Of a DNA stretch of 64,000 nt, positions 5,806-59,558 are shown in pieces. The DNA is from Ricinus communis (Eukaryota > Streptophyta > Magnoliopsida > Malpighiales > Euphorbiaceae). Below the pieces are notes generated by a model. It was not told the origin of the DNA. It saw only the letters and a program-made list of their open reading frames with translations, and did no database searches. Positions within the stretch are counted from its first letter, which is position 1. Each line of letters opens with the position of its first letter. Location: assembly GCF_019578655.1 (NCBI RefSeq), contig NC_063256.1, positions 4,216,001 to 4,280,000 on the forward strand. Reading direction: 5' to 3'. The position numbers and the translations under genes are program-made.

Positions 5806-8637
5806 ATGGCTGTGATTAAATACAATGGAGGAGACTTATTACCAGAAAGGAGAGGCGTAATCGGTGCCGTATTCAATTCTCTAAACGGTGATCATACCTT
5901 TTCTTCTCGTGTCGTTCGACGGAGGAAGCTCGGTCGTTTTACTAAACCGAGTTTCCTGATTTTGATTTTGTTGCTTTTTGCTCTTTTCTTGATTTCACTT
6001 TCCGTTTTTGGCCTCAGATTGCAACTTCCAGGTCAGCCGAGGTGCTACTACTGCTTCCTCCTTTTCTTTTTCTTTTTTATAATTATAAATGTCAAGTTTT
6101 GTTTTTCTTTTTGATAGGTAATTTTGAAAGTTTGGAGAAATTAGACAATGCTGATAATTTTGAGGAAAGTAATCAGATTAGAAATGAAGTAAAGCAGGAA
6201 TTTCATGGATCTAATTATATTCTAAATCCTCCAAAATCCAAGCGTAAACAGCGTAAGAGGATTTCGCTTCTTTGTGTTTCGGTTGTTTTCTAATCATATT
6301 TATTATTGTTAAAAGATATCAGCTTTGTGCTCTTGAGTTTTAGATTTAGAAACTCCAGAATGTAATCGTGTTCTTTTATTGTTATATATCAGTGGAAGTA
6401 TGGGACTGGCTTATGTAAACAGAGTGTAGAAGAGGAAGATCAAAGAAATATCACAATAAGCAAAAAATAATTATTATATTAAATTCCTTCATTAGTCTAA
6501 ATAAGAAAGATTCTTTATCACATGTGCTTTTTTATTGAGCTCCAATTTTGTGATAGCAATGGTAAATAGGGGGTCTAAAAGAAATTCTTTGCTGTATAGA
6601 GCTTTAAGCAATGCTGATTTAAGGATGTAGTATGTAAATTCATTTTTAAGAATTATTGAGTTCAGAAAATTTTGCCTACTCCAAAAATATTATCCCTGCC
6701 TATATAACAAATAAATGAGTAATGCATATTTATCAGTATTGAATAATTATGTACGCATCAATTGTTTCTTTGACATGCCTGTCATAACTAATGTTCTAGT
6801 TCATATTGTTCACTAAGAAGAGCTTAATCTCTTAAGACATACTCTTTTTAGCTAATTATTTCTTCTTTTTCAACATGATGTTAATGTTTTTTCCTTATAT
6901 GTTTGAGCTTTCAGATCTTCCCTGCGAAGTTGGTTTTTCAGGATCAGTTAATTATCTTATTGAGCCCCAAGATTTAAGAAATTTCACCCGATTTTCACTA
7001 CGTTATGTGGCCTCAGAGGAGAAACCTTTGGGTGCAAATTCATTTCAATCTAGATTTGGAGGACATCAAACACTCGAGGAAAGAGAGAAATCTTTCTATG
7101 CTAGAAACCAAACACTACATTGTGGTTTTGTTCAAGGAACTCCTGGACTTCCAAGCACCGGATTTGATTTGGATGAGAAGCACAGGGCATACATGAGTAC
7201 CTGTCGGGTAGTGGTCTCTTCCTGCATCTTTGGGAGCTCTGACTTTCTGCGGAGGCCTACAAGCAAAAAGGTAATTCCTTTCACAAAATTTTGCAAAAAT
7301 AAATTTAGAGCTTTTATTCATCTATGCATTTCTCTAATAATACCTGGATTGTGAATGTTTACTTCATATGTTTAAACTTCATTCCTTAACTGATGTTCTA
7401 TATTCTTGCTTGTTTCAGATCAGTGAATTTTCCAAGAAAAATGTTTGTTTTGTTATGTTTGTGGATGAAAGTACACAGTCTAAACTGTCTTCGGATGGTC
7501 ATATACCTGATGATAGTGGACATATTGGTCTATGGAAATTAGTTGTTGTCAGGAACTTACCATATGAGGACATGAGGAGAACTGGAAAGGTGCCAAAATT
7601 CTTATCACATCGCCTCTTCCCATCTTCTAGGTGATTGTTACGCTGCTATTTGCTTATCTAGTTTATGAGCTCCAGGACTTATTGTCATCACTGTAATTAT
7701 GATAAATTAATTATATTCTTACTTGCCTTCATGCTTGTGTTCCAGCTATTCAATTTGGCTTGACAGTAAGATGCGACTCAACACTGATCCAATGTTGATA
7801 CTTGAATATTTTTTGTGGCGAACAAGATCAGAGTATGCCATTTCAAACCATTACGACCGTCACTGTGTCTGGGAGGAGGTACTCCAAAATAAGCGTCTAA
7901 ACAAGTATAATCACACAGCGATTGATGAGCAGTTTAATTTTTACCAGTCTGATGGCCTAACCAAGTTTGACTCTTCAGATCCAAATACGCCTCTTCCAAG
8001 TTGTATGTCTTTCAGCATCTGACCTCTGTTAGTCTATTTTGGTTAGGAAGATTGTTTTTCCTTCTGAATAGTAGATGCCGACACTGTCTGTCATATCCTG
8101 CAGATGTGCCAGAAGGTTCATTTATTGTACGAGCGCATACGCCAATGTCAAATTTATTTTCATGCCTTTGGTTTAATGAAGTTGATCGATTTACTTCACG
8201 TGATCAACTTAGCTTTGCATATACTTACTTGAAACTGAGGAGATTGAATCCAGATCATCTATTCTACCTAAACATGTTCAAGGTATATATGTTGCTCAAT
8301 AACTCTTTAAATATGTATAGCTGATTAGACTGTAAATCAGGTCATATTGTGGATAAGTATAGCGAAGTTCTTTTATACCAGAACTCTACCCAATTAGTCA
8401 CCCAATTTGTAATACTGTAACTATTATTCTGGTCATAAAATCTCTATAATGTTGTCTGAGCTATTTGTGGAGGATTGGACTAATGCGGTCCATCTTGTTT
8501 GGAGGTTGTGCTGGGGACTTATGAACAATTTGGTGTACTTTGTCACTTTATGTTACTTTCTGCAGGACTGTGAACGCAGGGCATTAGCAAAGCTATTTCG
8601 TCACAGGGCATTGCCATCAACTCCACCTGGTCCTTAA
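5806..8637 (+). CDS. DUF616 / TOD1-like type II membrane protein, seven exons
   Basis: Exons read 5806-6031, 6118-6252, 6915-7270, 7419-7630, 7746-8002, 8104-8282 and 8566-8637. All introns are GT-AG, phases fit throughout, and the product is 478 aa ending in TAA. The N-terminus is basic (RRRKLGRFTKPS) and leads into a transmembrane helix at about residues 49-70, so a type II Golgi/ER orientation is likely. The lumenal part carries conserved DUF616 stretches such as LPCEVGFSG, FVMFVDE, GLWKLVVVRNLPY, YSIWLDSK and WFNEVDRFTSRDQLSF. Family members in Arabidopsis include TOD1, described as an alkaline ceramidase, and MUCI70, a putative glycosyltransferase, so the activity here is uncertain. Length is close to that of TOD1. 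The start is the first ATG in frame before the basic region. Confidence 0.9.
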
Positions 8638-10709: not shown

Positions 10710-10717
10710 TATAAATA
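10710..10717 (+). promoter_or_regulatory. TATA box candidate for the microRNA cluster
   Basis: TATAAATA in a less AT-rich context, about 88 bp before the first MIR2275-like hairpin. It would place a transcription start near 10740. Position is the only support. Confidence 0.4.
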
Positions 10718-10797
10718 CTCAGGCCATTGCTCTGCTTTACATAAATACTTTGCCAAAGGCAAACAAGGAAAAAGGAGTCTCAAACTCCTTTGTATGT

Positions 10798-10879
10798 GTT
10801 GTATGTGAAAATTGGAGGGAACTAAACAATCTGGCATTATATTTTTTGGCTACCTGTTTCCAATATTTAATGTCCAGCC
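10798..10879 (+). ncRNA. MIR2275-like hairpin 1 (degenerate 3' arm)
   Basis: The 5' arm contains AATTGGAGGGAACTAAAC, very close to known miR2275 5p strands (consensus core AATTGGAGGAAACCAAAC from the family). The 3' arm keeps the CCAATAT core at about 10859-10865, but the flanking bases no longer match the usual CTCCAATATCTCA end. The arms can still pair around TTGGA/TCCAA and near the base of the stem. This copy looks like a decayed or strongly diverged member of the tandem set, and its ability to yield a mature 22-mer is doubtful. Confidence 0.55.
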
Positions 10880-10934
10880 TTCAAATTGCTTTTTCAGCTA
10901 CAATTACAACCCTTATTGGATAGAGGATGTCTAA

Positions 10935-11020
10935 GTTGTATGTGAGGATTGGAGAAAATTAAATAAAATAGCTTGTTTGATGCATTTTGTTTAATTTTCT
11001 CCAATATCTCATATCCAACC
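10935..11020 (+). ncRNA. MIR2275: MIR2275 hairpin 2
   Basis: A near-perfect stem. The arm starting GTTGTATGTGAGGATTGGAG at 10935 pairs along about 35 bases with the arm ending TCATATCCAACC at 11020, leaving a small loop around 10970-10982. The 3' arm at 10990-11011 is a 22-mer that ends TTCTCCAATATCTCA. Compared with the published rice/maize miR2275 sequence it differs at positions 4, 5 and 9 only, and it begins with U. miR2275 is a 22-nt microRNA that directs cleavage of PHAS transcripts and leads, through RDR6 and DCL5/DCL3-type enzymes, to 24-nt phased siRNAs in meiotic anthers. Identity rests on family knowledge plus the visible stem; expression is not shown. Confidence 0.85.
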
Positions 11021-11074
11021 TGTTCATTTGTTCTTTAAGCATCTAGCAAAAAGTCTTATCTGCAGGAACATGTC

Positions 11075-11173
11075 AAAGTCGGACGTCAGAATTGGAGGAA
11101 ATTAAATAAATCATTTAGTAGCATTGTTTAGTGTGTTTTGTTTAATTTCCTCCAATATCTTATATTTGGCTTT
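11075..11173 (+). ncRNA. MIR2275: MIR2275 hairpin 3
   Basis: The 5' arm starts AAAGTC at 11075 and includes AGAATTGGAGGAAATTAAAT at 11088-11107, matching the known miR2275 5p start AGAATTGGAGGAAA. The 3' arm at 11141-11162 is a 22-mer ending CCTCCAATATCTTA and differs from grass miR2275 at positions 4, 5 and 21. The lower stem (AAAGTCGGACGT against ATATTTGGCTTT) holds mostly by Watson-Crick and G:U pairs. It lies about 55 bp after hairpin 2, in the same orientation, fitting one polycistronic primary transcript. Substitutions between hairpins 2 and 3 are paired on both arms around the TTCTCC/TCCTCC difference (AGAAAA versus AGGAAA). This is compensatory change and supports selection on the stem. 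Confidence 0.88.
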
Positions 11174-11519
11174 TTCAGCATATGTGTCGTCTATTCGACA
11201 AAAGAAGAAGAAGAATGTATGTCAAGCAGAGGTATGAATCAAGCAATCTCATAACAGAACGTGGAAAGACTCTTCACCAGCCTTTTCACTCTTAAACGCC
11301 GATGGCAAAACATATAAATCTATTACCTTACGATTTGAGTTTATTATCCTGAAAGATTAATGATAAATTATTATAAATTACCAACATGTGGCCAGTTAAT
11401 TAGACTTTCTTTTAAAGAAAAGGGTTGTTTTTGTAACTCCACATTTTTGCTTAAATTTCCCCACAGCTGGCCTTGTAGTACTGATCGTCCAAGCCAAAAG
11501 CAAATTCTCACTGGTTGCA

Positions 11520-14500
11520 ATGCAAATGGAAGCTTGCTTGACGAGATGCTGTCATAAAAATGCTTTCTATAGAGCATTAAGAAAACCTCTCAATTTCAAA
11601 CTCTTTAGCTCTTCTTTTCGCTGCTCTTCAATGTCCATTCGTTCTGGTTGTTACTTCTCTTTCTTTCTTCCATATTAGCATGTGTACATGTATGTGGGTA
11701 TTTTATTATCTGACCCCAGAAAGGTTCTAATTTTTTCGATTATTAGGAGGAACCAAGTCCCTTAAAAAGGCATATGATGCATTATTGTTGGATGCTGGTG
11801 GCACCCTTTTGCAATTGCCTCATCCTGTTGAAGAAACTTATGCTTCTATTGGCAGAAAATATGGTTTCTCTCGTTTCCCCTTTTTGTATTGTATTTTTTT
11901 TGTTTCAATATTAATAATAATTAAAAATTAATATCAATAATAATTTTTTAGCAATTTACCTCTGCGTTTTAAGTGCTAGAGAAGTAGTGGGTTATTTAAT
12001 CTGTTAGAAGCTTTTTGTATGTTCTGCCATTGGTCGTACCTGCTCCGTAAAATTGCTGCTTTTGCTGGTGAATTGATCGTTGTTGGAGGAACTGGGTTGT
12101 GACTTTTAAGTAGCATTCTTGGCATGGTTTGTTTAAGTAGTTTGGGTCTTTTTGAACCAACTTGATTAATCTGTTGTATAATATGTTGCTTCGGTTGCAG
12201 CTAATTCTCTTTATGGTTATGGTTCCAGGTCTGTCTACAAGTTCCGCTGAAATTAAGAAGGGATTTAAGAGAGCTTTTTCTGCTTCATGGCCTCAAAAGC
12301 TCCGATACCAGGTCATTGTTGTTAATGATCTGATTTTGTCCTTCGTTTCCTTGTTTTATGTTAAAGATATTCACATTTTTTTTTTAACTTTCAGATGATG
12401 GGGAATTATTTTTCTCTTTTGATATGTAAACTGAATATGTTCTATTGCATTTCACCCATTAACCCATTCTTACAATTAATTTTCTTAAGAAATACATGCT
12501 AGATAATGTTTTTTTTTTTTTTGTTTTAGCTAGGTATGAATATTTTAAAAGATGTAGCAATGTGCATGGATGGCATATTTTTATAGGTGAACGGGTCAAG
12601 ATTCTTGCTTTGGTCAAGCACAGTTGTTCATTAGACTGGTGGATGGTTTTCACTGTGTTTCTTTTCTAATGTAAAATAAGATATTGATGGGGAAATTTTA
12701 CTGAATTTGTACTAGGCAGCTATTAGTATTATGCCCATTTACTAACTTGTTATATGGCCAATGACATTTATAGGTCAGATGAACATCCGTTCCTGTTTCA
12801 TGAAATCAGCCATCCAAAATCTCCTCTTCTTCTGGTTATTAGAAGTTAGAACTCTTTATTCACTATATTCTTCTCCCAATGTTATTGATTGTATAGTAAT
12901 ATCAATAAGTTTCTTAACTAGGACCACTTAATGTGTCAGGTGAATAACATGCATCCTGCTGTTGAGAACTCATAACTTTGTGGTCTATCTTCTTTTTTCT
13001 TTTTCTAAATGGTTACAAAGCAATATGCAGAAAACAAGGATTGCCATGTTCCTTTGATTAGACAATTGTTCTTTGTTGCTCACCAGCTATTTTCCTTAAA
13101 CTTGAAAGCAATTTCTTTTGTAATTGGAAGCGCTGATTAAAATCTGGTCTATCTTGAATTTCTTTTGCTATTAACAGGGAGATGCAAGGCCATTTTGGAA
13201 ATTTGTTGTTTCTGAAGCCACTGGTTGTGATAATGATGATTATTTTGAAGAACTTTATAAGGTTTTTTTGTGAGACCCACTTTCTACATCCGCATTCCTC
13301 CGTTCAATGATACTGTTGAATGCATATATTCTTGGTTTCTATCATTCAAAAAAACTTAAGAAAGGGAAAAAAGATAAAATGAAATCATTTCATATTAGAG
13401 TCCTTTGTATCAAGTCCCAACGGTTGCTTCATGCAGTACTTTGCAGATGGTGATGCATGGCGCCTTCCAGATGGGGCATATGAAACATTATTCTTTCTGA
13501 AAGATGCTGGAGGTCATATTCAATAAATATTCTCTTTTTTCATGCCTAAGTCTTGCAACACCTAATGTCTCTGAATTTAACTTTTTCTTGCTTTTCCCAA
13601 CTTCATGACTAATGGCACAGTTAAACTGGCTGTTGTGTCCAATTTTGACACCCGATTAAGGAAGCTATTACAGGATCTAAATGTTATAAATCTGTAAGTG
13701 TCAGTCTTTTCCTTCCTTTTTCTTCCTCTCTCTCCCACTTTCATTGATTTAGCTTCTCCATGAACGAGCTGCTATTTCTGAACTGCAAAGGTCCACAGTA
13801 ACTTTACATATTTGACTTATGGTATGTTGGTGGCATTCATTCTCTTAACTTACCCCTAGAAGGACAAAAAATTGGATGTGATCCTTTGCTCTATGGAGGC
13901 TCATGATGTAGATGAGCTTACAAAAATCATGTCTTTCTTAATTTCTTTCTCCATTGAGATTTTAGAATTTGCTTTTAGGAGTGTAATTATGGATGATGAA
14001 ACTTTACATTTTCAACACCTTTGAAAATAGCCAGCAGACATAGGGCAGCTAGATGTGCCCCGTTCTATCAGATTTGAAGGTTCTTTTTGTTATTTTTTTT
14101 AAATACTTGTCTCTTTCTCAGGTTTGATGCTCTAATTATATCTTCTGAAGTTGGATATGAAAAGCCAGATCCAAACATATTTAAAGCTGCTTTAGGTATG
14201 TATTGGTTTTATTACCACAAATTGGGGCAGTAGGGATGAGAGCACAAAGGAAACTGTAGCACGACACCAGACTTTCTCATTGTGGACATAATGGCTGACA
14301 AATTATTAGAATGTTTGGCATGCATTTGCCTTTTCATCTGAAGTTATGGGATTTTTGCCTATAGGTTGTTTTAAGGACAGATAGGAGTAGCGACAACCAA
14401 TTTCAGCATAAATTGTATTTGCCTAATGTATAAACTGTTCATGCGTTCTTTGGATTTCAAAATCAGACACCAGCAATTGCTGAAACCACATTAGAGGTAT

Positions 14501-37324: not shown

Positions 37325-40300
37325 TTAAGGAGCAACAGTAAATCCACTTACTTCTCTCAATACAGTTTCCACGGTTGGCCTTTGATCAGGAGATTCATGA
37401 GTGCAAATAAGAGCTAATTTCCCAAGTTCGATTGCCTCTAATTCTGAGAACTTCCCCTCGAGCTTTGCATCAATAAAAAGTTCCACTTTGCATGATTCCA
37501 CTGCATGGCGAATCATTGCTGTGATGTTCCGTTTTCCACTGAGGATTTGGAGGACAATCATACCAAATGAATAAACATCACTCTTTTCAGTGAAACGACC
37601 AGTAGTTGTGTACTCAGGAGCTAGGTATCCCATGGCAGCACTGGCTTTGAGTATGGAAAAAACAATGTCATCTGCAAGGAGTTTGTGCAAGCCTGAATCT
37701 GAGAGTAATGGATTATACCGTATGTCAATAAACACTTTCTCAGCTGATATATTCTGGTGAAATAGAGCACGTTTACTTCCTTTATTCCCATGTAAATATC
37801 CAATACCTGTTTAAAAAGATGACAAAGAGAACAACTTTAGTTGCCATAAATACAAGATGATTATATACTTCTTAGTACTGCATAAGTTATATCATTCAAT
37901 TTTATTTTGGCCATGCAATCATTTAGAAATTAACAATAATCACTACTGTAATGGTCATACAATATGCTACTATTTAGTTTTCCCCAGATGTGCAGTGTAA
38001 GAGCTTCGCAACAACAAGTACATGGAATGACATGATAGGTAACTGGTTCTAGAAAAACATTAATACATCAAAGAAAAAAATGAGGAAAAACAAGAACAGC
38101 AACAATTCATGTAAATTAATAGGAAAGCACATATACTGACCTTTGGCAATGCCATTTATGATAGATACTCTGGTAGACCACTCAAGAACCCTCTCAGTGC
38201 CTTCTTTTACATCAAGGTATTGCAACAGATTTCCATTCTGGACAAAATGATAAATGAGAAAACACTCCCCCCTTCCTTTGGAGCAACAAAAGCCTCTCAG
38301 CCTCACCAAATTTTCATGTTTCAATGAGGTCAAAATCTTCAACCCCTTCAAAAAGTCAGCTTCATCTGATTTGCAACTTGTTTTGGTGATGCACTTTACA
38401 GCAACAACTGATCCGTCTCTTAGGATTCCCTTATAGGTGGCACAGAAATTACTCTTCCCCAACAAATTCACCTCTGAAAAGCATTGAGTCGCTCGTTCAA
38501 CCTCTTCTAAATTGAACATGAAGCTTTCAAGAAATTCCTGAGAAAGTCCATTTTTATTCTGGCCTATGGCTAAGGGATCCCACCCATTGGAATACTCTAG
38601 CTAATAAGTAGAGAGGCACTCTTCATGCAAACTTTCTTCGCCTGGTCTGTACTAAGCCGTCCATCTGAAGCATCAAAAGCACTTCCAATTTTCTGTTTTT
38701 GACGGCAGTACCATGTGAACGTGAAAAGTACAATGATGGTTAAAACAATGAAAACTCCAATTACACCAAAGATGATACCAAATTGTGGGTTTTTGGATGA
38801 ATTTGAACAATGAGTTTGGCCGCAATTAGAAGTAAAGTTTGCAGATTCCGGGATATCTCTTTGCAAAGTACCATTAGGTTTGAAAGGTTCAGGCCTATTC
38901 GGGTTCAAATTACCAGAAGCTGTACATGTTTCCAAGTTAGGAAACCCAATTCCACATACGTCGGGATTATTGTCATATTGGAATCCATTATCCAGCCTCC
39001 TTAGAGCTTCAATTTTCAGCAACAAGAAAATAAAATTATAATGTCAAAGCCAATTTCAAGTCAATTCTTTGCAAAATCAATGTAGAAATAATGCAAAGCA
39101 AATGCAAGGATGTGTCAGAGTTTGAGAAACCATTATACCTGCAGGTAAATTCCCAGAGAGACTGTTGTTACGGATGTCTAGAACTTGTAGCATAGGGGCG
39201 GTGGCTAATTTTACCGGGACAGATCCAAAAAGGCCATTAAAGCTCAAGTCCAACCTTGTCAAAAATCTCAAATCCCCCAAACTTGCAGGTATTGCACTAG
39301 TTAGCTGATTACACTGTAGAGCAAGGACATTTAGTTTCCTTAGAGATCCCAATTGTGTTGGTATACTCCCAGTCAGCTTATTGTAACACAGCTGCAAAAC
39401 TGCAAAGGAAAATCCATAAATCAGGTAAAAGTTTGCCATTTTTGCAGTTATAACCTGAAAGTATGATGATTGCTCAATGAAAGTTCTAAACAGAAAATAA
39501 GGCCATTCTTTTTTTCTATTTGAAATAAAGGTCCAATCGATCCATTCCCCAGTGCCGGTGATTGAAAGAAAGATCCCAGCATGCTAGTTGAAATATTGAC
39601 CCAACAGAGCAACAACAATGATTTTTGGAATTTAAAATAATGTAAAATAATAAGGACCTCCTGACTGTCTAAGTAATAATGGGGCCAACTATTCAAGTAA
39701 TTATTCAGGTAGAAATAAAAGCAGGCAGCACTGATGAAGGAGAATAAAATTAAAATACTGTAGAGTTTACACAATTAATACCCAGCATCGGAAAATTAAT
39801 GCAAAAGCTTCATTTCATTCTCTACACAAGTCAATTATTTAACTAAGCGCAGAAAGTTTTTAACTTCTAATTAGTCAAGATTTAAGCTTTTTCATGATAA
39901 GCAGTTCAATTTTGAGATTCTCCCATTTCAAAAATAAACTAGAACAAGATCAATAACTCCAAGCTACAGAACAAAACCCGGTTAGAAACAAATACTGAAA
40001 ACAACATGCAAGTCATACAAGATTGAAGCTTTTCAATGGAAAAGTTGACATCAACTATAGATTGAAGCTTTTCAATGGACAACTATTAAATCCAAACGCA
40101 GTAACTTCAGATTTACTGAGAAACAGACACAAATTTTACTAACCAAATTTGCAGAATTTCAAAAAATAGCCAAAACACTGACCTTGAAGATTAGACATGT
40201 TACCAATCTGTCTTGGAATTTCGGCAGATAGATTATTCACATTGGGATACAAATCACTAAGTTCAGTTAGCTGAGCAATCTCTTTTGGTATCTCCCCATT

Positions 40301-44936: not shown

Positions 44937-44942
44937 ATTATT

Positions 44943-45672
44943 AAACGCACTTTTATGAAGAAACCTATCAAATGCTAAATAAGTAACAATTGCCGCCAAC
45001 CAAAAATAAAAATCAAGAGAATTTGAAAAAAGAAGAAGCAAGTATTACATATCAGAAATCGTACTTAGTTCTACCACTCATTAAAATAAGGCACAACATA
45101 TCAGAAATATCAGAAGCAGATCTGAAGAAATTCCATGATTCGAGCATTAAACGTTTCCTTGATCCTTTAAAATGCACCACCTTGACATCCAAAGGCATTC
45201 TGTGAAATTGACCTGCTCCCTCAGGTGGTGTCCAATTATATGTAGCACATGGTAGAAAGAGCACTGATGCACCTCCCATCTCATCCATAAAAGCCTGTGC
45301 TTTGCGAAATCTCCGCAGATCAAAGCCAGGGTGTGATCTTATCACCCACGCAAGAGCTAACTGATCTCCAAGCATTCGAGAAGCATTCATGTACTTGGAA
45401 GTGTAGACTTCTAGCACATGCTGAAGGAAAATCTTTGCTCTACAGCTAATTTATTTCATAAGCAAGTGTCAAAAATTTAGCAATTTAATTTTCTATTTGC
45501 CTAGAATTTGGAGAACATAAGGAAAAAAAGAAGGGGAGAAAGCCAAATGACAATCGTTTCTCCTAAGCTATATACCAAAAAAAGACTCGATTGAATCACT
45601 ACCCTAGCTAACCCACAAGGTTGTGCAGGATCAGAATTAGAGTTTGAAGAACCTAGGCAAACCAAACAAGCT
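44943..45672 (-). repeat. Inverted-repeat arm B1: copy of glycosyltransferase last exon
   Basis: Reverse complement of about 47862-48591. It carries the complete last exon of the glycosyltransferase-like gene in an open frame (from MLEVYTSKYMNASRMLGDQL to GRTKYDF and stop at 45052), with a single visible residue change (Gly to Arg before MPLDVKVV). Part of intron 5 and the 3' flank are also copied. There are no upstream exons on this strand, so it cannot encode the whole enzyme. The high similarity points to a recent event or gene conversion. Confidence 0.92.
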
Positions 45673-46293: not shown

Positions 46294-48483
46294 ATGAGAA
46301 CATGGAGTGGATGGCGTCGTTTCATCCTTTGTTTCTTTCTGCTTCTCGTCATCTTTCATATCTTCTCTGGTGATTTGTCCTCCCTCCCTTCTCCTTATGT
46401 TTTATTTTTCTATTTATTCATTATCCGATACTTGAACTAAATTGTTGCTATATTTTTTTAAATTTAAAAAAAGAAAAATTGATTTTAGTGCTGGAATTGC
46501 ATTCGAACTCGGTCACTGAAGCTCCCCAGAAGAATCGGAATAAAAAGTCTGATCATCTGGTTCTTGGGCCTGCTGCTGGCCAAGGCTTGCCTGATCGGTT
46601 GCAATGCGAAGGTTTCTTATAGTCTTTACTTTTCTTTTACTTGTTATTGTTTCTTGCATAATTACTGTTGCTTTGCTTGTTGTATATGTGATTCATGTTT
46701 TTAATTTTGTCTAGGCTCCAAAGCTCTCAACAAAACCCATTTGCTAGATTCTTCCTCTGGCTCCAATGTTGGAGATAACGTTGCATTTGTTACCGTCTTT
46801 ACCATTTACAACACTTCACTGGATTCTATTCCTGATGATAGATCATCAAATTTAGTCACTGTTGGGAATGTTTCTTACAGTAAGATGGAGAGGTCAATGG
46901 CCATTTTGAATGTATTCATTAATTTCATTCAGGTAATTGATTCTGTTGAAGTCATGCTTGAAAATGTTTAATCTAAATGTATAATATATGTGATGACATT
47001 TTGTTAGCTTTTGGAAGTTATATAATTTTCTTTCAATTTTGTATGTTCTGCCTAATATCTACCGGATCATATCTATGTAATAGTTAATCCAAACCATGTC
47101 CACTTGCTTCCATTGTGTAGCTATTGAGACTCTTATTTCAAAAGTACAATTTCAGGTGACTATGCCTCGAAGCAATGTTATCATCCTAACTGATCCAGCA
47201 TCTGATCTCTCGCTGCAAAGATATAAAGTCACTCTGTATCCTATTCAGGGAGAATATTCTCGAGAAAAATTGATGCTTCAAAGAATCAAATCTTACATTG
47301 TAAGGGCTCGTCGCATTGCCAAATAAGCAGAATATTTCTGTTTTGAATTTGTTGTTTTGTTTCTATGGCATCTTTTGTGAACCTTCTTATTCTTGCTTTT
47401 GTTTTTATCCTGCACAAGATTTCCTGATATTCTGACTTCCCACCAAGCCAACAAGTCCTAATGAACTCCATTGCAGTGCTTTATCTTATTTTCTTCCAAA
47501 ATATGCATACTGCTGATGAGCGGATGAATTTCTCTTTTGCACTTTGTATGTTGTTTATGTAGAATTTTCTAGACATGAAGCTCAAGGAGCTTGCTAAGAA
47601 CCCAGTGCATAAAAGCCATTACATCTTTACAGACTCGGATATAGCTGTGGTTGATGACCTAGGGCGCATTTTTCATGAATATCCAAATTTCCATATAGCC
47701 CTCACCTTCCGCAACAACAAAGAGCAGCCTTTAAATTCTGGGTTTATTGCAGTAAGGGGGACTGCCGAGTCAATTTTGAGGTATGTAATTTGCATTTGCT
47801 AGTATTCCCTTTTTCACTGTGATTAATTGGATTGCAAAAACTGTTTGGATATTTCTTGTTGTTTGGTTTGCCTAGGTTCTTCAGACTCTAATTCTGATCC
47901 TGCACAACCTTGTGGGTTAGCTAGGGTAGTGATTCAATCGGGTCTTTTTTTGGGTTTTTTGGTATTTAACTTGGGAGAAACAATTGTCATTTGGCTTTCT
48001 CCCTTTTTTTTTCCTTATGTTCTCCAAATTCTAGGCAAATAGAAAATTAAATTGCTAAATCTTTGACACTTGCTCATGAAATAAATTGGCTGTAGAGCAA
48101 AGCTTTTCCTTCAGCATGTGCTAGAAGTCTACACTTCCAAGTACATGAATGCTTCTCGAATGCTTGGAGATCAGTTAGCTCTTGCATGGGTCATAAGGTC
48201 ACACCCCGGCTTTGATCTGCGGAGATTTCGCAAAGCACAGGCTTTTATGGATGAGATGGGAGGTGCATCAGTGCTCTTTCTACCATGTGCTACATATAAT
48301 TGGACACCACCTGAGGGAGCAGGTCAATTTCACGGAATGCCTTTGGATGTCAAGGTGGTGCATTTTAAGGGATCAAGGAAACGTTTAATGCTCGAATCAT
48401 GGAATTTCTTCAGATCTGCTTCTGACATTTCTGATATGTTGTGCCTTATTTTAATGAGTGGTAGAACTAAGTATGATTTCTGA
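46294..48483 (+). CDS. Glycosyltransferase-like type II membrane protein, six exons
   Basis: Exons 46294-46369, 46489-46611, 46715-46932, 47156-47299, 47563-47780 and 48096-48483. All introns are GT-AG, phases fit, and the product is 388 aa. A short basic N-terminus precedes a hydrophobic anchor at about residues 10-25, as in Golgi type II enzymes. The stretch YIFTDSDIAVVDDLG carries a DSD motif at residues 211-213, the kind that binds metal and nucleotide sugar. The C-terminus (GGASVLFLPCATYNWTPPEG, MPLDVKVVHFKGSRKRLMLE, GRTKYDF) matches an uncharacterised plant family of the At5g12260 type. Donor sugar and acceptor are unknown. No lesion was seen, so this is the likely functional copy; partial copies lie at 29453-30025 and 44943-45672. 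Confidence 0.9.
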
Positions 48484-48591
48484 TATGTAATACTTGCTTC
48501 TTCTTTTTTCAAATTCTCTTGATTTTTATTTTTGGTTGGCGGCAATTGTTACTTATTTAGCATTTGATAGGTTTCTTCATAAAAGTGCATT
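47862..48591 (+). repeat. Inverted-repeat arm B2
   Basis: Partner of arm B1 (44943-45672), overlapping the last exon and 3' flank of the glycosyltransferase gene. The arms are separated by about 2.2 kb that contain exons 1-5. Confidence 0.92.
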
Positions 48592-49026
48592 TACAGTTTT
48601 GTTTGATCACCTAACTTTAGAAATGAAAAAGTTAATTTATGATGCTTGCTTAATAATTTATGAAAAGCCAGTATGAGCTCTAGTATGTAGTTTAGACAAC
48701 TTCATTGTTCAAACGGGAAATTGGGGAGTGCTTCTGCGGCAATAAGATGTTAAAAAGGAACTCACTATTTGAATAGAGTGTGATGCAATCAGCACGGATG
48801 ATTCAAAATGCATTGCGCCCATTGAAAAGTTTTGATGCTAATATGAGAAAAAGAAAGGTAATACTACATTTCAGATTGAACCCTGTAGTCTTGATAGTAA
48901 GTAGTTTTGTTAAGGTTCAAAAAGCTGGTCCTGATCTTGTAAATGCAAAATCTATTAGCAGTGTCACGGGATCTACAATATTGAAAAAAATATGGTCCAT
49001 GTACCTACCATGCACCTCTCACAAAT
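48592..49026. other. Spacer downstream of the glycosyltransferase gene
   Basis: Between arm B2 and block F. No domain recognised. Confidence 0.4.
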
Positions 49027-50096: not shown

Positions 50097-50380
50097 TGTG
50101 AAAAAGACAGTAAAGAAGATTGAATTTTATATTAAGGATTCTGAGTTCTTTACAATGAGAAGAATGGTATATATACATGATTTGCTTGATTGTGTTCTAT
50201 TCTAACGGTTGCCTAACGACTCTTTTTGCAAGGGTATGGGTTGAAGTGACCTTTCCTGCTTTGCAGGAAAGGATGCTCCTTTTACCCTGAAGCCTGTGAT
50301 GATAGGTCTGCACAAGCAATCTAGCTTGTGCAGCCTCTGAGACCTCAGCTTCTTTTGCTTCTTTTCTTCCTTCTTCAACA
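50097..50380 (-). repeat. Copia 3' LTR
   Basis: 284-bp terminal repeat, 3' LTR in element orientation, paired with 54681-54965. Confidence 0.95.
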
Positions 50381-50399
50381 CTCCTTCTCAATGTGGGTT

Positions 50400-53300
50400 C
50401 GAATAAGTTTATTGCACCCATCTTGTTGAGGATCGAATGATGATTCTGCCTATCCAGGGCCTTTGTGAATATGTTTGCCAGTTGGTCTTGACTTCTGATG
50501 TAAGGAGTCTCAATCTCTCCCTTTTGAACCTTTTCTCTGATGAAGTGGCAATCAACTTCAATGTGTTTGGTTCGTTTGTGAAACACCGGATTCGATGCTA
50601 TGTGTCGAGCAACTTGATTATCACAATGCATTTGCATTGGTTCTTTACTTTCAATTTTCATATCTTTGAGGACTTGTTTGATCCAAATGAGTTCGCTTGC
50701 AGTGGATGCCATTGCAACGATCGCCACTACACTTTGTTTTTTACTTTTCCAAGTCACCAAGTTTCCTCCTACAAAGACACAGTAACTGGTGGTTGACTTC
50801 CTGTCATAGCTTCCAGCCCAATCTGCATCAGAAAAACCAACTATGTTAGTAGTATTGTACTTCTTCATCCAGATTACTTGTCCAGGAGTTCCTTTGAGAT
50901 ATTTGAGGATTCGATCTATAGCTTCTAGGTGACTGGTGCGAGGAGCATGCATGAACTGGCTCACCATACTAACTGCAAATGAAATGTCAGGTCTAGTGAC
51001 AGTAAGATAAATCAGTTTTCCTACTAAGCGCTGATAATGCCCTATATTGGTTAAGGAGTCTCCATCTTCTAGGTTAAGTTTAATTTTGGTTTCCATAGGG
51101 GTGATGGCAGGTTTAGCACCTATTTTTCCAGTTTCTTTCAAAAGGTCGAGGGTATATTTCCTTTAAGATAGAAATAAGCCCTTGTTGGATTTTGCTATTT
51201 CTATGCCTAGGAAATATGACAGTTGGCCAAGATCTTTGATGTCGAATTCTCGTTTTAGACTTTATTTGACATTCTCTATTCCTTGATCATCATTCCCTGT
51301 TATTATAATATCATCAACATACACTAAAATAACAATAGTGTGATTAAGAGTGTTTTTAACGAACACAGATGAATCAGATTCACATTTACTGAAATTAATA
51401 CTTAATAAAAAACGGCTGAGTTTGGCATACCATGCTCTCGGGGACTGTTTTAGGCCATAGATAGTCTTTTTTAGCTTACATACCCGAGAAGTGTCTAAGG
51501 TTGACTTATGACTAGGGGGTAGTCTCATGTAAACTTCCTCTTCTAAATTGCCTTGTAGGAAGGCGTTCTTGACATCCATTTGGAATAGATTCCAGTCCTG
51601 ATTGATTGCTGTTGAGAGAAGAATTCTAACCGTATTCATTTTGGCTACTGGAGCAAATGTCTCTTGATAGTCAACTCCATAGGTTTGAGTGAAGCCTCGG
51701 GCTACAAGTCTGGCCTTGTATCTTTCAATGATTCCATTATTATTGTACTTGATCTTGTATATCCATTTGCATTCCAGGGGTTTTTTATTTTGTGGAAGAG
51801 GAACAATACTCCATGTATCATTTTTCTCTAAGGCAATGAGTTCTTCTTCCATAGCCTTACACCATTTAGGGTCAGTGTTGGCTTCGTAGAAATTTGTGGG
51901 TTCAGTATGATTTGAGATCTGACAAAGGTAGTTGCGATATTGGTTAGATAAGACATTATAGGAAATGAACTTCTGAATTAGATATGTTACGGTATGAGAC
52001 ACATAGTCTCTAAATTTTACAGGAGGTCTGGATTGACGAGTGGATCTTTTCAAGGTAATTTCTTCTTCTTCTTGAGGTTGAGTTTCTCCCCCTGAAGGAA
52101 GTGGCCTTGAGATAGTGGGTGACTCCCCCTGAGGCTGATAATCCTGTTCAGAGCTACTAAGAGAAGAATCAGAGTTAAGCGGAAATAAAGACTGACACGG
52201 TCCATGAGGAAAAACAACACCGGTGGGGGGTGGGTAGTAGGGTTCAGTTTCAACAAAGGTGACAACATGAGAAACATAAGATTTGTGGTTTAAAGGATCA
52301 TAGCATTTGTACCCTTTTTGGGTGGAGGAATAGCCTAGAAAGAGAGTCTTGACCGAGCTTTTGTCTAGTTTGTGTGAGCGCTTGATATGTACATAACAAA
52401 CACATCCAAAAACTCAAAGATGACTTACTGCTATTTTTCGGCTTTTGAGAACTTCTAGAGGGCTGGGGTTTTTTAAGGTGACAGTGGGAAGTCGATTTAT
52501 GAGATAGGCTGCAGTTAAGAGGGCATCAGACCAAAACATAGAAGGCACATGATTTTAAAAAAGGAGAGTGCGAGCGACAATGAGAAGATGTTGATTTTTA
52601 CGTTCAGACACTCCATTTTGTTCGGGAGTATTAATACATGTGGTTTGATGCCCAATTTCATGGTGTTTAAAAAAGCTAGAAAAATATTGATTTACGTACT
52701 CCGTACCATTATCGGAGCGAAAATTTTTTAAATTTGCATTATACTGATTTTTGATGAAATTGAAAAAAATCTTGAAAGCGGAAAAAAACTTCATTTTTGC
52801 CTTTTAATAAATAAATCCAGGTGGTGCGAGAGTAATCATCAATAAAGGTAACAAAGTGTCGAAAGTGATTATATGCAGTAACGGGGGCAAGTCCCCAAAC
52901 ATCAGAATATATTAAATCAAATACGTTTTTAGACATACTGGATGACAAGGAAAAAGGTAAACACGTGTGTTTAGAAAGTTTATACACATCACAATTGCTA
53001 GAATTTAAATTTGAACAAAATAATTTATTTAAAACAATATCAGAAGGATGCCCAAGTCTCCGGTGCATAAGCATATCTTGGGTAGGATTAGTTGACACAA
53101 AATATGTCTTGGGAGGGTTATGCAGATAATAAAGACCATTTTCTAGTTGACCTTTACCAATCGTCTTTCCGAAAATTCGATCCTGAAAAATGACTGAAGA
53201 TGGTGAGAAAATAACGTTGCAATTTAAGTCACGAGTAATTTTGCCAACAGATAAAAGGTTAGATTTAAACTCAGGCAGAAATAAAATATCTGGAATATCG

Positions 53301-54618
53301 GATTGAAATAAATTTGTGGTGCCGTATCCCTGAATTTTGACTTTGTTGCCGTTGGCAACTATCACACGATGGGAATTTTTGATAGAATGAATTTTTTGTA
53401 ATTGAGTGGGATCCCAACTATCCAAGCATTATGATAGTAATTTGATGAATTAATAGTGGTTGAACCAAACCTGACCCATCGGGTGGGTTTGAACTGAACC
53501 CATTGGACGGGGCACGAAGTTGGGCAAGATGTCGACCATTTGGGCTGAGATGGTACGGTGGGCCGTAGGAGTCGACTGGGCCTGGGCCGGATGATCTTGG
53601 TGGGTTGGCTAATTTTGGTGGTCGGAGGAGCCCATGGGAGACTATCAATTTGGAGGGATCACTAGGCCAAAGGCTGAATGGGCCGAGTCCAAGTGATGAC
53701 GGGTTGTTTAGTCGGGTCGGGTCGTTAGACCGGGTTCGAGTCGAGTTTGATTAAAAACACCCACCCCGGCATACACATCCATTCCTAACCCTGCTTCTTC
53801 TCTTGTCCCGTAAAGACCTTCTCTCTTGCCGCCCCCTTTCCTTTCTCCTCTTCCCTCTCGCCTCACTGTTCCAGCCCCTTCCTACCCCCGAGATGGCCTC
53901 AAATACGGGTGTAGGTGCCAGCAGACATCGCGGAAGTGACCTTGCCTTTGGCAGTGGTCACAGCGCGCGATGGCGCTTGGCCCTCCTCGCTGTCGAGTGA
54001 CATCTCGTCGAGCTTTGTAGGCATGATTTTTCATGAGTTGTGGGGGAGAGGAGGAGTTCATGGTGTTCATCCGCGTTTCTTCCACTGAACACTTGCTATC
54101 ACTTCGTCTATTCGAGGAAGCTCAGACGCAAGAAGGATCTATGATCTCAGGCTTTCATAGCTTTAGTCCAATCCTCCAAGGTAAGTGTAGACAAGATCTT
54201 GTTCCCTCCTTTTTTGAATTTCTATCAGATCGATAGAAGGCGGAATATAGTTCTGCAACTCTTCCCACCGTGTGAGTATTTCTGTTGTAAAATTATGTTG
54301 GTGGCCATAAAGGCTTTCCATTTTTTCCCAAATCGATTTTGATGATTCCATCAGGATGCAAAAACGGGAAATTTGGGGCTCCATAATATTTGTGAGCAAA
54401 GACATGACCAAGTGGTCAGATGTCTGCCATTCCTCTATTCTTTCAATTTCTTCTTCTGTTGAGGCTTCCAGCCTCTCTGGTTTTGGCCTTTGCTTTGTCC
54501 GAGTGATAAATCTCAGCATTTTTCTACCACTGAGGGCAATATATACTGTTTTGAACCATTCGAAATAGTTGGAGTTTCCTTTAAGGATGATGTTGGTCAA
54601 TTTTTCATTTTGAGACAT
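50400..54618 (-). pseudogene. Copia gag-pol remnants
   Basis: On the minus strand: a gag segment at 54163-54618 (UBN2 type, SQNEKLTNIILKGNSNYFEW); a zinc knuckle near 53900-53970 (CDHCQRQGHFRDVC, C-X2-C-X4-H-X4-C); and a pre-integrase and integrase start at 52739-53425 (MHRRLGHPSD, FIDDYSRTTW). Next come an integrase continuation at 52555-52794 (SDNGTEYVN), a reverse transcriptase at 51262-52053 (MDVKNAFLQG, YVDDIIITG), and late RT plus RNase H at about 50400-51141 (FSDADWAGSYDRKSTTSYCV). The segments lie in different frames. The RNase H part lacks the usual SSAEAEYRA block, replaced by a shorter sequence, so a catalytic acidic residue is probably lost. Confidence 0.92.
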
Positions 54619-54680
54619 GGCTGAGGTTTAAAAAAAATGGGTAGATGATGATCACTGGTAGGAACCAGGCTCTGATACCA

Positions 54681-54965
54681 TGTGAAAAAGAACAGTGAAG
54701 AGGATTGATTTTTATATTAAGGATTCTGAGTTTTTTACAATGAAAAGAATGGTATATATACATAATTTGCTTGATTGTGTTCTATTCTAACGGTTGCCTA
54801 ACGACTCTTTCTGCAAGGGTATGGGTTGAAGTGACCTTTCCTGCTTTGCAGGAAAGGATGCTCCTTTTACCCTGAGGTCTGTGATTATAGGTCTGCACGA
54901 GCAACTTAGCTTGTGCAGCCTCTGAGACCTCAGCTTCTTTTGCTTCTTTTCTTTCGTCTTCAACA
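54681..54965 (-). repeat. Copia 5' LTR
   Basis: 285-bp terminal repeat, 5' LTR in element orientation, followed on the minus strand by the primer-binding site. Confidence 0.95.
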
Positions 54966-55738
54966 CACACAAACACACAGACTTAACAAAGCAGCCTTTA
55001 AATGACAGGAAAAGGAAAAGATGGTGAAAACATGAGTGAATCAATATTTTAGTTCATCCAGTAAGAGAAGCACAATGCCAAATCAACGTGTACAATTTTA
55101 TTGAAGTTGCACAGGAAAAAATACATGCCCAACAATCAGCATATGTTGTACCAGTCATGAATTCTACAATGCATAAACTACAACAATTACATATTTCAAA
55201 AATAGAAATAAAAGAAAATAAAGGTTCTGTTTTTCTTTGATACAGCTCAACAAAAATCTTCTTGGACACAAGACATGATACTCCTCTTTATATAGCATCA
55301 ATTAACATATATGAAAAGACAATAATTGGCAATGAGCGATCATAAAAATGTTAACGAAAGAACAATCACAAAATGTTAACGATCATAGAAATGTTAACGA
55401 AAGATCATAAAATGTCCAGTGCTACCAAGGGCTGTGCTTCTCAGGTCCAATTTCCTAAGTTTTGGATGTGTTAAATATTGCTATATTATTTAATCTCTTA
55501 TATTAAACTGTTTACTAATTCATTGCTCGGTTGGCAATAAAATGAAAACTTTTCGTATCTGTGTATTATCAGGAACGAAAATGATGTCTTTAGTGTGTAA
55601 TTGCAAAGTCAGAATTGAAAAAGTTTTTATTAGTGGCTTAAAATGTAAAGTGATTTACAGTAAACAATTTTATTTCTGTAGATTATTCAGTTGAGAAGGA
55701 AATGGGTGAAAGTAAAACTAATTGAACAAACACATGAG
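54966..55738 (+). repeat. Duplicated block G, copy 2
   Basis: Direct copy of 31925-32637, continuing block F beyond the copia element. It carries one insertion of about 70 bp near 55435-55500 relative to copy 1. Homology stops near 55738, where tRNA phosphotransferase sequence begins. Confidence 0.9.
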
Positions 55739-58510: not shown

Positions 58511-59558
58511 ATGCTTATCTGTGCCAGTACAGATCAACAGCCCTGGAATTCACCGCTATCAACTCTGATTCTTGTCCGAAAATGCAAAACTGCAAGCGAC
58601 ACAAGTCAAGTCCATACAAGGATGATAACAACTGGGTTTATTAAAAGCACTTCTTTAACTACTAAAATCATACTGTCTCTCTCTCTCTCTCACCAAAGAG
58701 GACCCTTTTCTCTGGAATGCTGTAATCAAGACTCACTCTCGTGGAAATGACCCAAAACAAGCGTTAATAATTTTCTCTTTGATGCTTGAGAATGGGGTTT
58801 TTGTGGACAAGTTTTCGGTTTCTTTGGTCTTGAAAGCACGTTCTCGACTGGAGTTGGTTAAGGAAGGAATGCAAATTCATGGGTTATTGAGAAATTTAAA
58901 ATTCGGGTCTGATGTGTTTTTGCAAAATTGCTTGATCGGGTTGTATATAAGATGTCGATGCATAGAGTATGCACGTCAAGTGTTTGATAAAATGCCCATG
59001 AGAGACTCTGTTTCATATAATTCGATGATAGCTGGTTATGTCAAGCATGGTAACATTGACCTGGCACGTCAATTGTTTGATGTTATGCCGATTAATTGGA
59101 GAAATTTAGTTTCTTGGAATTCTCTATTGAGAGGGTATATGCGGTCAGACAATGGATTCGAGCTTGCTTGGAATTTGTTTGAGAAAATGCCTGAGAGAGA
59201 TCTGTTTTCGTGGAAATCAATGGTTGATTGGTGTGCGAAATGTGGGAGGATGGAAGATGCTCAGGCTTTGTTTGATAGGATGCCGGAAAGGACTATAATT
59301 GGCTGGGCTAACATGGTTGATGGGTATGCTAAATTAGGCTATGTTGATATTGCTAGGAAATTTTTTGATAACATGCCAGATAGAGATGTTGTTGCTTGTA
59401 ATGCCATGATGAGTGGTTACGTACAAAATGGCTACTGCATGGAAGCTTTAGATATCTTTCATGATATGCAAAGAGAGAGTAATCTGTGTCCTGACAATGC
59501 CACGTTGTTGATTGTTCTTTCTGCAATTGCTCAGTTAGGGCATATTGAAAAAGGATGA
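58511..59558 (+). pseudogene. PLS-type pentatricopeptide repeat protein, frameshifted and truncated
   Basis: The N-terminal frame from ATG 58511 (STLILVRKCKTASDTSQVHT, RMITTGFIKSTSLTTKIILS) breaks in a CT microsatellite at about 58676-58692. The neighbouring frame continues EDPFLWNAVIKTHSRGNDPK and on through several repeats: ARQVFDKMPMRDSVSYNSMI, AGYVKHGNIDLARQLFDVMP, FEKMPERDLFSWKSM, LFDRMPERTIIGWANMVDGY and NMPDRDVVACNAMMSGYVQN. A TGA at 59556 ends it after AQLGHIEKG, well short of the length usual for the E or DYW subgroup, and no E domain follows. Such proteins bind organelle RNA. Two lesions make it a pseudogene unless the CT tract varies between alleles; even then the C-terminus is missing. 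Confidence 0.85.

Follow-up and report, generated by a model that had tools for sequence, protein, structure and literature searches.

Surroundings of the locus

The window analysed here, a 64-kb stretch of DNA (C1:4216001-4280000), carries a tandem array of MIR2275 units, flanked upstream by TOD1/MUCI70-type gene exons (6875-8019) and downstream by a frame (11731-11928) which has no Pfam match and which we take to read as a HAD-type hydrolase. The preliminary description of this DNA had called the genome eudicot-type, and the proteins bear this out, since both the joined receptor-kinase exons and CUL3 match eudicot proteins. Four receptor-kinase exon pieces within 37328-39439 share 421 of 438 aligned residues with a protein of Ricinus communis, and we take the plant to be castor bean or a near relative; the eight best relatives of the joined exons come from Ricinus, Vernicia, Jatropha, Mercurialis, Hevea (twice) and two Euphorbia species, all of them genera that we take to be Euphorbiaceae, the family to which castor and cassava presumably both belong. 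The best match of CUL3, a protein too conserved to serve as a species marker, is a poplar cluster (96%), and a receptor-like protein in the window has distant matches only.

Elsewhere in the window a gene piece occurs twice, head to head, at 44942-45669 and 47859-48593; the copies are 97-98% alike and about 2.2-2.5 kb apart, and they reflect either an inverted duplication of recent date or a feature of the assembly. This gene piece contains 121-aa frames that have no Pfam match. A copia-type LTR retroelement lies in pieces at 50101-54966, with 281-nt direct repeats at both ends (94% alike); its RVT_2, GAG-pre-integrase and gag-like matches fall in different frames. At 58659-59555, a 299-aa frame of PPR repeats stops in the middle of its repeat array, which points to an intron or a broken gene.

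Two MIR2275 clusters and their predicted mature strands

Direct repeats in register divide 10780-11190 into three tandem units in one orientation, with a start-to-start spacing of 137-151 nt. Hairpin 2 (10933-11021, forward strand) scores 62.9 bits with the Rfam model of MIR2275 (RF03896), at an E-value of 6.9e-10 in the whole window; it thus passes the curated cut-off of 60.5 bits and is the sole match above the cut-off of any Rfam family in the 64 kb. Hairpin 3 (11076-11172, forward strand; 57.1 bits) falls slightly below that cut-off, and the first unit (10796-10880, forward strand; 26.7 bits) is far below it. The scores of hairpins 2 and 3 uphold the MIR2275 identity that had been read from the letters. 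The clustered layout, which had been taken to be the habit of the family, is seen here in the tandem units and agrees with the clusters reported by Xia et al. (2019; PMC6367383), in whose survey almost all species containing MIR2275 have at least one cluster.

Fold significance was expressed as z against dinucleotide shuffles (200 for each hairpin). Hairpins 2 (-39.8 kcal/mol, z -10.63) and 3 (-35.8 kcal/mol, z -7.84) are stable stem-loops with the miRNA in the 3p arm, the fold energy of neither being equalled by any of its 200 shuffles, and the full 411 nt also fold better than expected (z -6.83). The first unit has no stem (z +0.37, with 126 of 200 shuffles equally good): its arms are unpaired, and the arm-arm pairing of -9.6, against a shuffled mean of -8.4, was equalled by 131 of 500 shuffles. 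The earlier picture of three hairpins therefore holds for the second and third units and fails for the first, which is a recognisable MIR2275 copy, aligned with the others by repeats in register, that has decayed. Upstream of the cluster, a pattern scan found the word TATAAAT (10710-10716, forward strand), a possible Pol II promoter element that gives a hint only of Pol II transcription of the cluster.

The predicted 22-nt miR2275 3p strands are TTTAATTTTCTCCAATATCTCA in hairpin 2 (10990-11011) and TTTAATTTCCTCCAATATCTTA in hairpin 3 (11141-11162), both on the forward strand and with ends set by homology. They lie exactly where they had first been placed, and each has three differences from the MIR2275 consensus 3p strand of the Rfam model, the number that had been given relative to grass miR2275. 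The fold, with an assumed 2-nt 3' overhang, predicts 21-nt 5p partners on the same strand at 10945-10965 and 11088-11108; the 5p core AATTGGAGGAAA, originally attributed to both, is exact in hairpin 3, and hairpin 2 has GATTGGAGAAAA instead. All five hairpins that fold, the two here and three on C10, leave nucleotide 17 of the 22-nt strand without a partner, and in each of the five the partner is 21 nt long under the 2-nt overhang rule; in hairpin 3 nucleotide 21 is unpaired too. Xia et al. (2019; PMC6367383) likewise mark bulges in the litchi and strawberry duplexes of miR2275, and the triggers of phasiRNAs are typically 22-nt miRNAs (PMC6367383).

A search of the genome (a 315.5-Mb assembly of 140 contigs) with the MIR2275 model returned six matches, namely the two hairpins described above, three hairpins on C10 and the opposite strand of one of the latter. 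The C10 cluster (C10:8853690-8854055) scores 63.0, 43.8 and 50.3 bits, so that two of its three hairpins are below the Rfam cut-off, and all three fold (z -8.28, -4.36 and -6.62). Counting the decayed first unit, there are six MIR2275 units in all, three at each of two genomic places. In the C10 cluster a TATAAAT-like word stands 112 nt ahead of the first mature strand. The middle C10 hairpin (C10:8853886-8853907) has a diverged 3p strand, TTTAGTTAACTCTGATATCTCA, with four unpaired positions in a stem that still folds; this strand may be decaying, or may have other targets. A recent duplication linking the two clusters was considered and rejected, as the window and the 60 kb around the C10 cluster were found to have nothing in common beyond PPR-type similarity (21-25% identity in frame-against-frame blastp) and, at the DNA level, a single repeat-like match of 143 nt.

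The opposite strand of hairpins 2 and 3 folds too (z -8.11 and -5.63), because the stems are near-palindromes, and it scores lower in Rfam (39.4 and 34.4 bits). Near-palindromic stems with a folding opposite strand are also what might be seen in a generic inverted-repeat or transposon-derived hairpin that feeds heterogeneous siRNAs and resembles miR2275 by chance. We find such an origin barely credible, given the E-value of 6.9e-10 in the whole window, a bulge position that is common to five hairpins at two places, and a genome-wide total of only six model matches (one of them an opposite strand), which is unlike a repeat family. A second possibility is that the hairpins are genuine MIR2275 descendants in a plant whose pathway has weakened or been lost, the locus decaying and the stems being unexpressed or triggering nothing. 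The first unit no longer folds, so that decay is under way, hairpin 3 scores below the Rfam cut-off, and one C10 hairpin has the diverged strand with four unpaired positions. The stems of hairpins 2 and 3 are nevertheless near-perfect despite flanks and loops that differ between the two, which neutral decay would not preserve, and complementary sites are in excess in the genome (see below); we therefore regard a relic locus as unlikely.

Candidate complementary sites in the genome

A site pattern, TRAGATATTGGAGRAAAYYAAA, was built from the reverse complements of the precursor 3p strands. With up to three mismatches it has 239 matches in the genome, against 142 for its reversed form, and with up to two mismatches 37 against 9. 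Four of these matches fall on the precursors themselves, so that 33 candidate sites lie elsewhere. Two same-letter scrambles and the reversed forms of both served as further controls and gave, for scramble and reversed form respectively, 14 and 8 and 7 and 5 matches with up to two mismatches, so that the five controls range from 5 to 14 with a mean of 8.6. The excess thus amounts to about three-quarters of the 33 sites relative to the control mean, and to somewhat more than half relative to the highest control. Before the last two controls were added, the Poisson probability of 33 sites was 1.6e-8 for a mean of 10.3 and 1.1e-5 for a mean of 14, and a two-count binomial comparison of 33 with the highest control (14) gave P 0.004. 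Four of the 33 sites have a single mismatch, against none with fewer than two among the 21 listed matches of the scrambles. Two pairs of identical sites lie in homologous DNA (L036/L037, 81% alike, and L044/L045, 97%), which reduces the number of independent sites to 31. When positions opposite nucleotides 16-18 were left free and one further mismatch was allowed, there were 41 matches, including four at precursors, as compared with 12 when the pattern was reversed, a count that depends on the first. From these comparisons the genome seems to hold more candidate complementary sites than chance gives.

Twenty-six of the 33 sites were fetched as 3-kb loci (7 were not). At 24 of these the site is not crossed by any open frame of at least 80 aa, the frames in the other two being 130 and 119 aa, and the G+C content of the loci is 0.16-0.39. 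Chance sites would likewise be mostly intergenic and AT-rich, and no single candidate PHAS locus is established by these site features. Conservation among 24 loci (precursors and two duplicates dropped) ends at the borders of the 22 nt except in scattered columns, for example at +30. Three pairs of otherwise unlike loci (L026/L043, L027/L046 and L046/L051) match each other in the immediate surroundings of the site, in register or almost, although both members of each pair were chosen by the pattern, so that only a few extra bases are informative.

Among the 31 distinct sites, 18 of 58 mismatches fall opposite miRNA nucleotides 16-18, against 5.8 expected from base composition (binomial 9e-6, with weights set by hand from base frequencies and a test chosen post hoc). 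Mismatches in the seed (nucleotides 2-8) number 9 against about 12 expected, with no clear depletion. The minus strand of C1:33.607-34.347 Mb carries five of the 33 sites, two of which duplicate each other, and the nominal P of 1.6e-8 for this group is inflated, as duplicates were included and the region was picked afterwards. A stretch of 29 kb holds three candidate sites on a single strand (L035, L036 and L037; C1:33.89-33.92 Mb), and two of the three are in duplicated DNA that is 81% alike.

We also considered whether the target-like loci are further MIR2275 copies, and rejected this as a general account: there was no Rfam match at E 0.01 in the 14 of the 26 non-precursor loci so searched, and all six candidate windows that were folded behave like their shuffles (z -0.95 to +0.97). 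At L036 and L037 the site pairs locally with a neighbouring stretch, the overall fold being no better than that of shuffles. Pairing of the site with its flanks ranges from -3.7 to -13.2 kcal/mol in the 26 loci, as against best flank pairings of -21.4, -22.4, -20.4 and -13.6 in the four precursor loci, the last of which is hardly separable from the candidate loci.

The main target could instead be a protein gene, namely a U-box gene whose mRNA the hairpin-2 strand would cut at C1:10235045-10235066. Pairing there is near-complete (penalty 2.5; L013 1500-1521), with a single end mismatch and two G:U pairs, and the site falls within a 444-aa coding frame with a U-box domain. The 16-nt core, however, occurs once outside the precursors and the reversed control once too, so that chance suffices to account for it, and we hold this target to be very improbable.

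Dicer complement and the proposed 24-nt pathway

A search of the genome for the Dicer dimerisation domain found four loci, this and all Dicer counts here being lower bounds. Compared with solved structures, an exon piece of one locus matches Dicer-like 3 at 199 bits, with DCL1 next at 88.6, and other exon pieces match DCL1 at 557 bits and DCL4 at 109 bits. The fourth locus has weak matches of similar score to DCL1 (47 bits) and DCL3 (44 bits), and by exclusion would be DCL2. No second DCL3-like or DCL5 locus was found among the at least four Dicer loci. DCL3 has been suggested to dice 24-nt phasiRNAs in eudicots, and is single in grape and rubber (PMC6367383). Since no second gene of the DCL5 type, which makes 24-nt RNAs in many monocots, was found in castor, the single DCL3-like Dicer is the likely dicer of phased 24-nt RNAs in this plant.

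We propose that the two hairpins at 10933-11172 probably form a MIR2275 gene, preceded by a third unit that has decayed, and that this gene serves the 24-nt phasiRNA pathway. One non-coding transcript would most likely run through the cluster, and Dicer would cut each stem to give a duplex of the 22-nt 3p and the 21-nt 5p strand. The 22-nt strand would be loaded into Argonaute and would cut long non-coding PHAS transcripts at complementary sites, and the cut RNA would be made double-stranded and diced, probably by the DCL3-like enzyme, into phased 24-nt RNAs in anthers at about meiosis. Transcription, processing, cleavage, double-strand synthesis, phasing and anther timing are all inferred from the published pathway, of which meiotic anther transcription, slicing, RDR6 synthesis and 24-nt dicing are described in PMC6367383 and in the available text of PMC8098804 and PMC12337324. 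Activity of the pathway in castor is made more plausible by the second cluster, the DCL3-like Dicer and the excess of sites.

A more specific model is tentative, and we would call it possible rather than likely: plants of the castor type may have a pared-down meiotic 24-nt pathway, with two MIR2275 clusters and a DCL3-like enzyme as the sole 24-nt Dicer, in which part of the targets lie in the same-strand supercluster at C1:33.6-34.35 Mb and a tolerance of mismatches opposite nucleotides 16-18, around the precursor bulge, is a targeting rule. The retention of the miR2275 pathway among eudicots, and the choice of Dicer within it, are matters of evolutionary interest that bear on male fertility. 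Castor, in which two small clusters, a single DCL3-like Dicer and a limited number of candidate sites were found, offers a simple system in which to ask whether heterochromatic and phased 24-nt RNAs come from the same DCL3.

The locus is a further case of the known miR2275 clusters. Xia et al. (2019; PMC6367383) found the pathway to be widespread in eudicots, with Malpighiales among the orders that have MIR2275, and castor may be one of the 209 genomes of their survey, possibly with this locus already recorded. As the pathway is known across eudicots including Malpighiales, and cassava miR2275 is said to be in miRBase (available text of PMC4723133), its presence here is not very surprising. 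A search of titles and the starts of abstracts for Ricinus, castor or Euphorbiaceae together with miR2275 or phasiRNA gave no paper on this locus.

The eudicot pathway of litchi, strawberry, grape, orange and cotton (PMC6367383) resembles what we see in castor in its precursor family, in same-strand tandem stem-loops, in a 22-nt strand within a bulged duplex and in DCL3 without DCL5; the sites there are in non-coding loci, and castor has candidate complementary sites. Expression, cleavage and phasing were measured in those species, whereas the castor locus is described here from sequence, and the castor cluster, unlike the systems compared, has two intact units and one decayed. In peach, according to the available text of PMC8098804, a eudicot miR2275 likewise has targets predicted in non-coding 24-nt loci, and there, in contrast to castor, floral buds provided measurements of the miRNA and of 36 predicted PHAS loci. 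Cassava is of the same order as castor, and the part of PMC4723133 available gives neither cluster anatomy nor phasing. In poplar, a control library contained 11 miR2275 reads (available text of PMC4570220).
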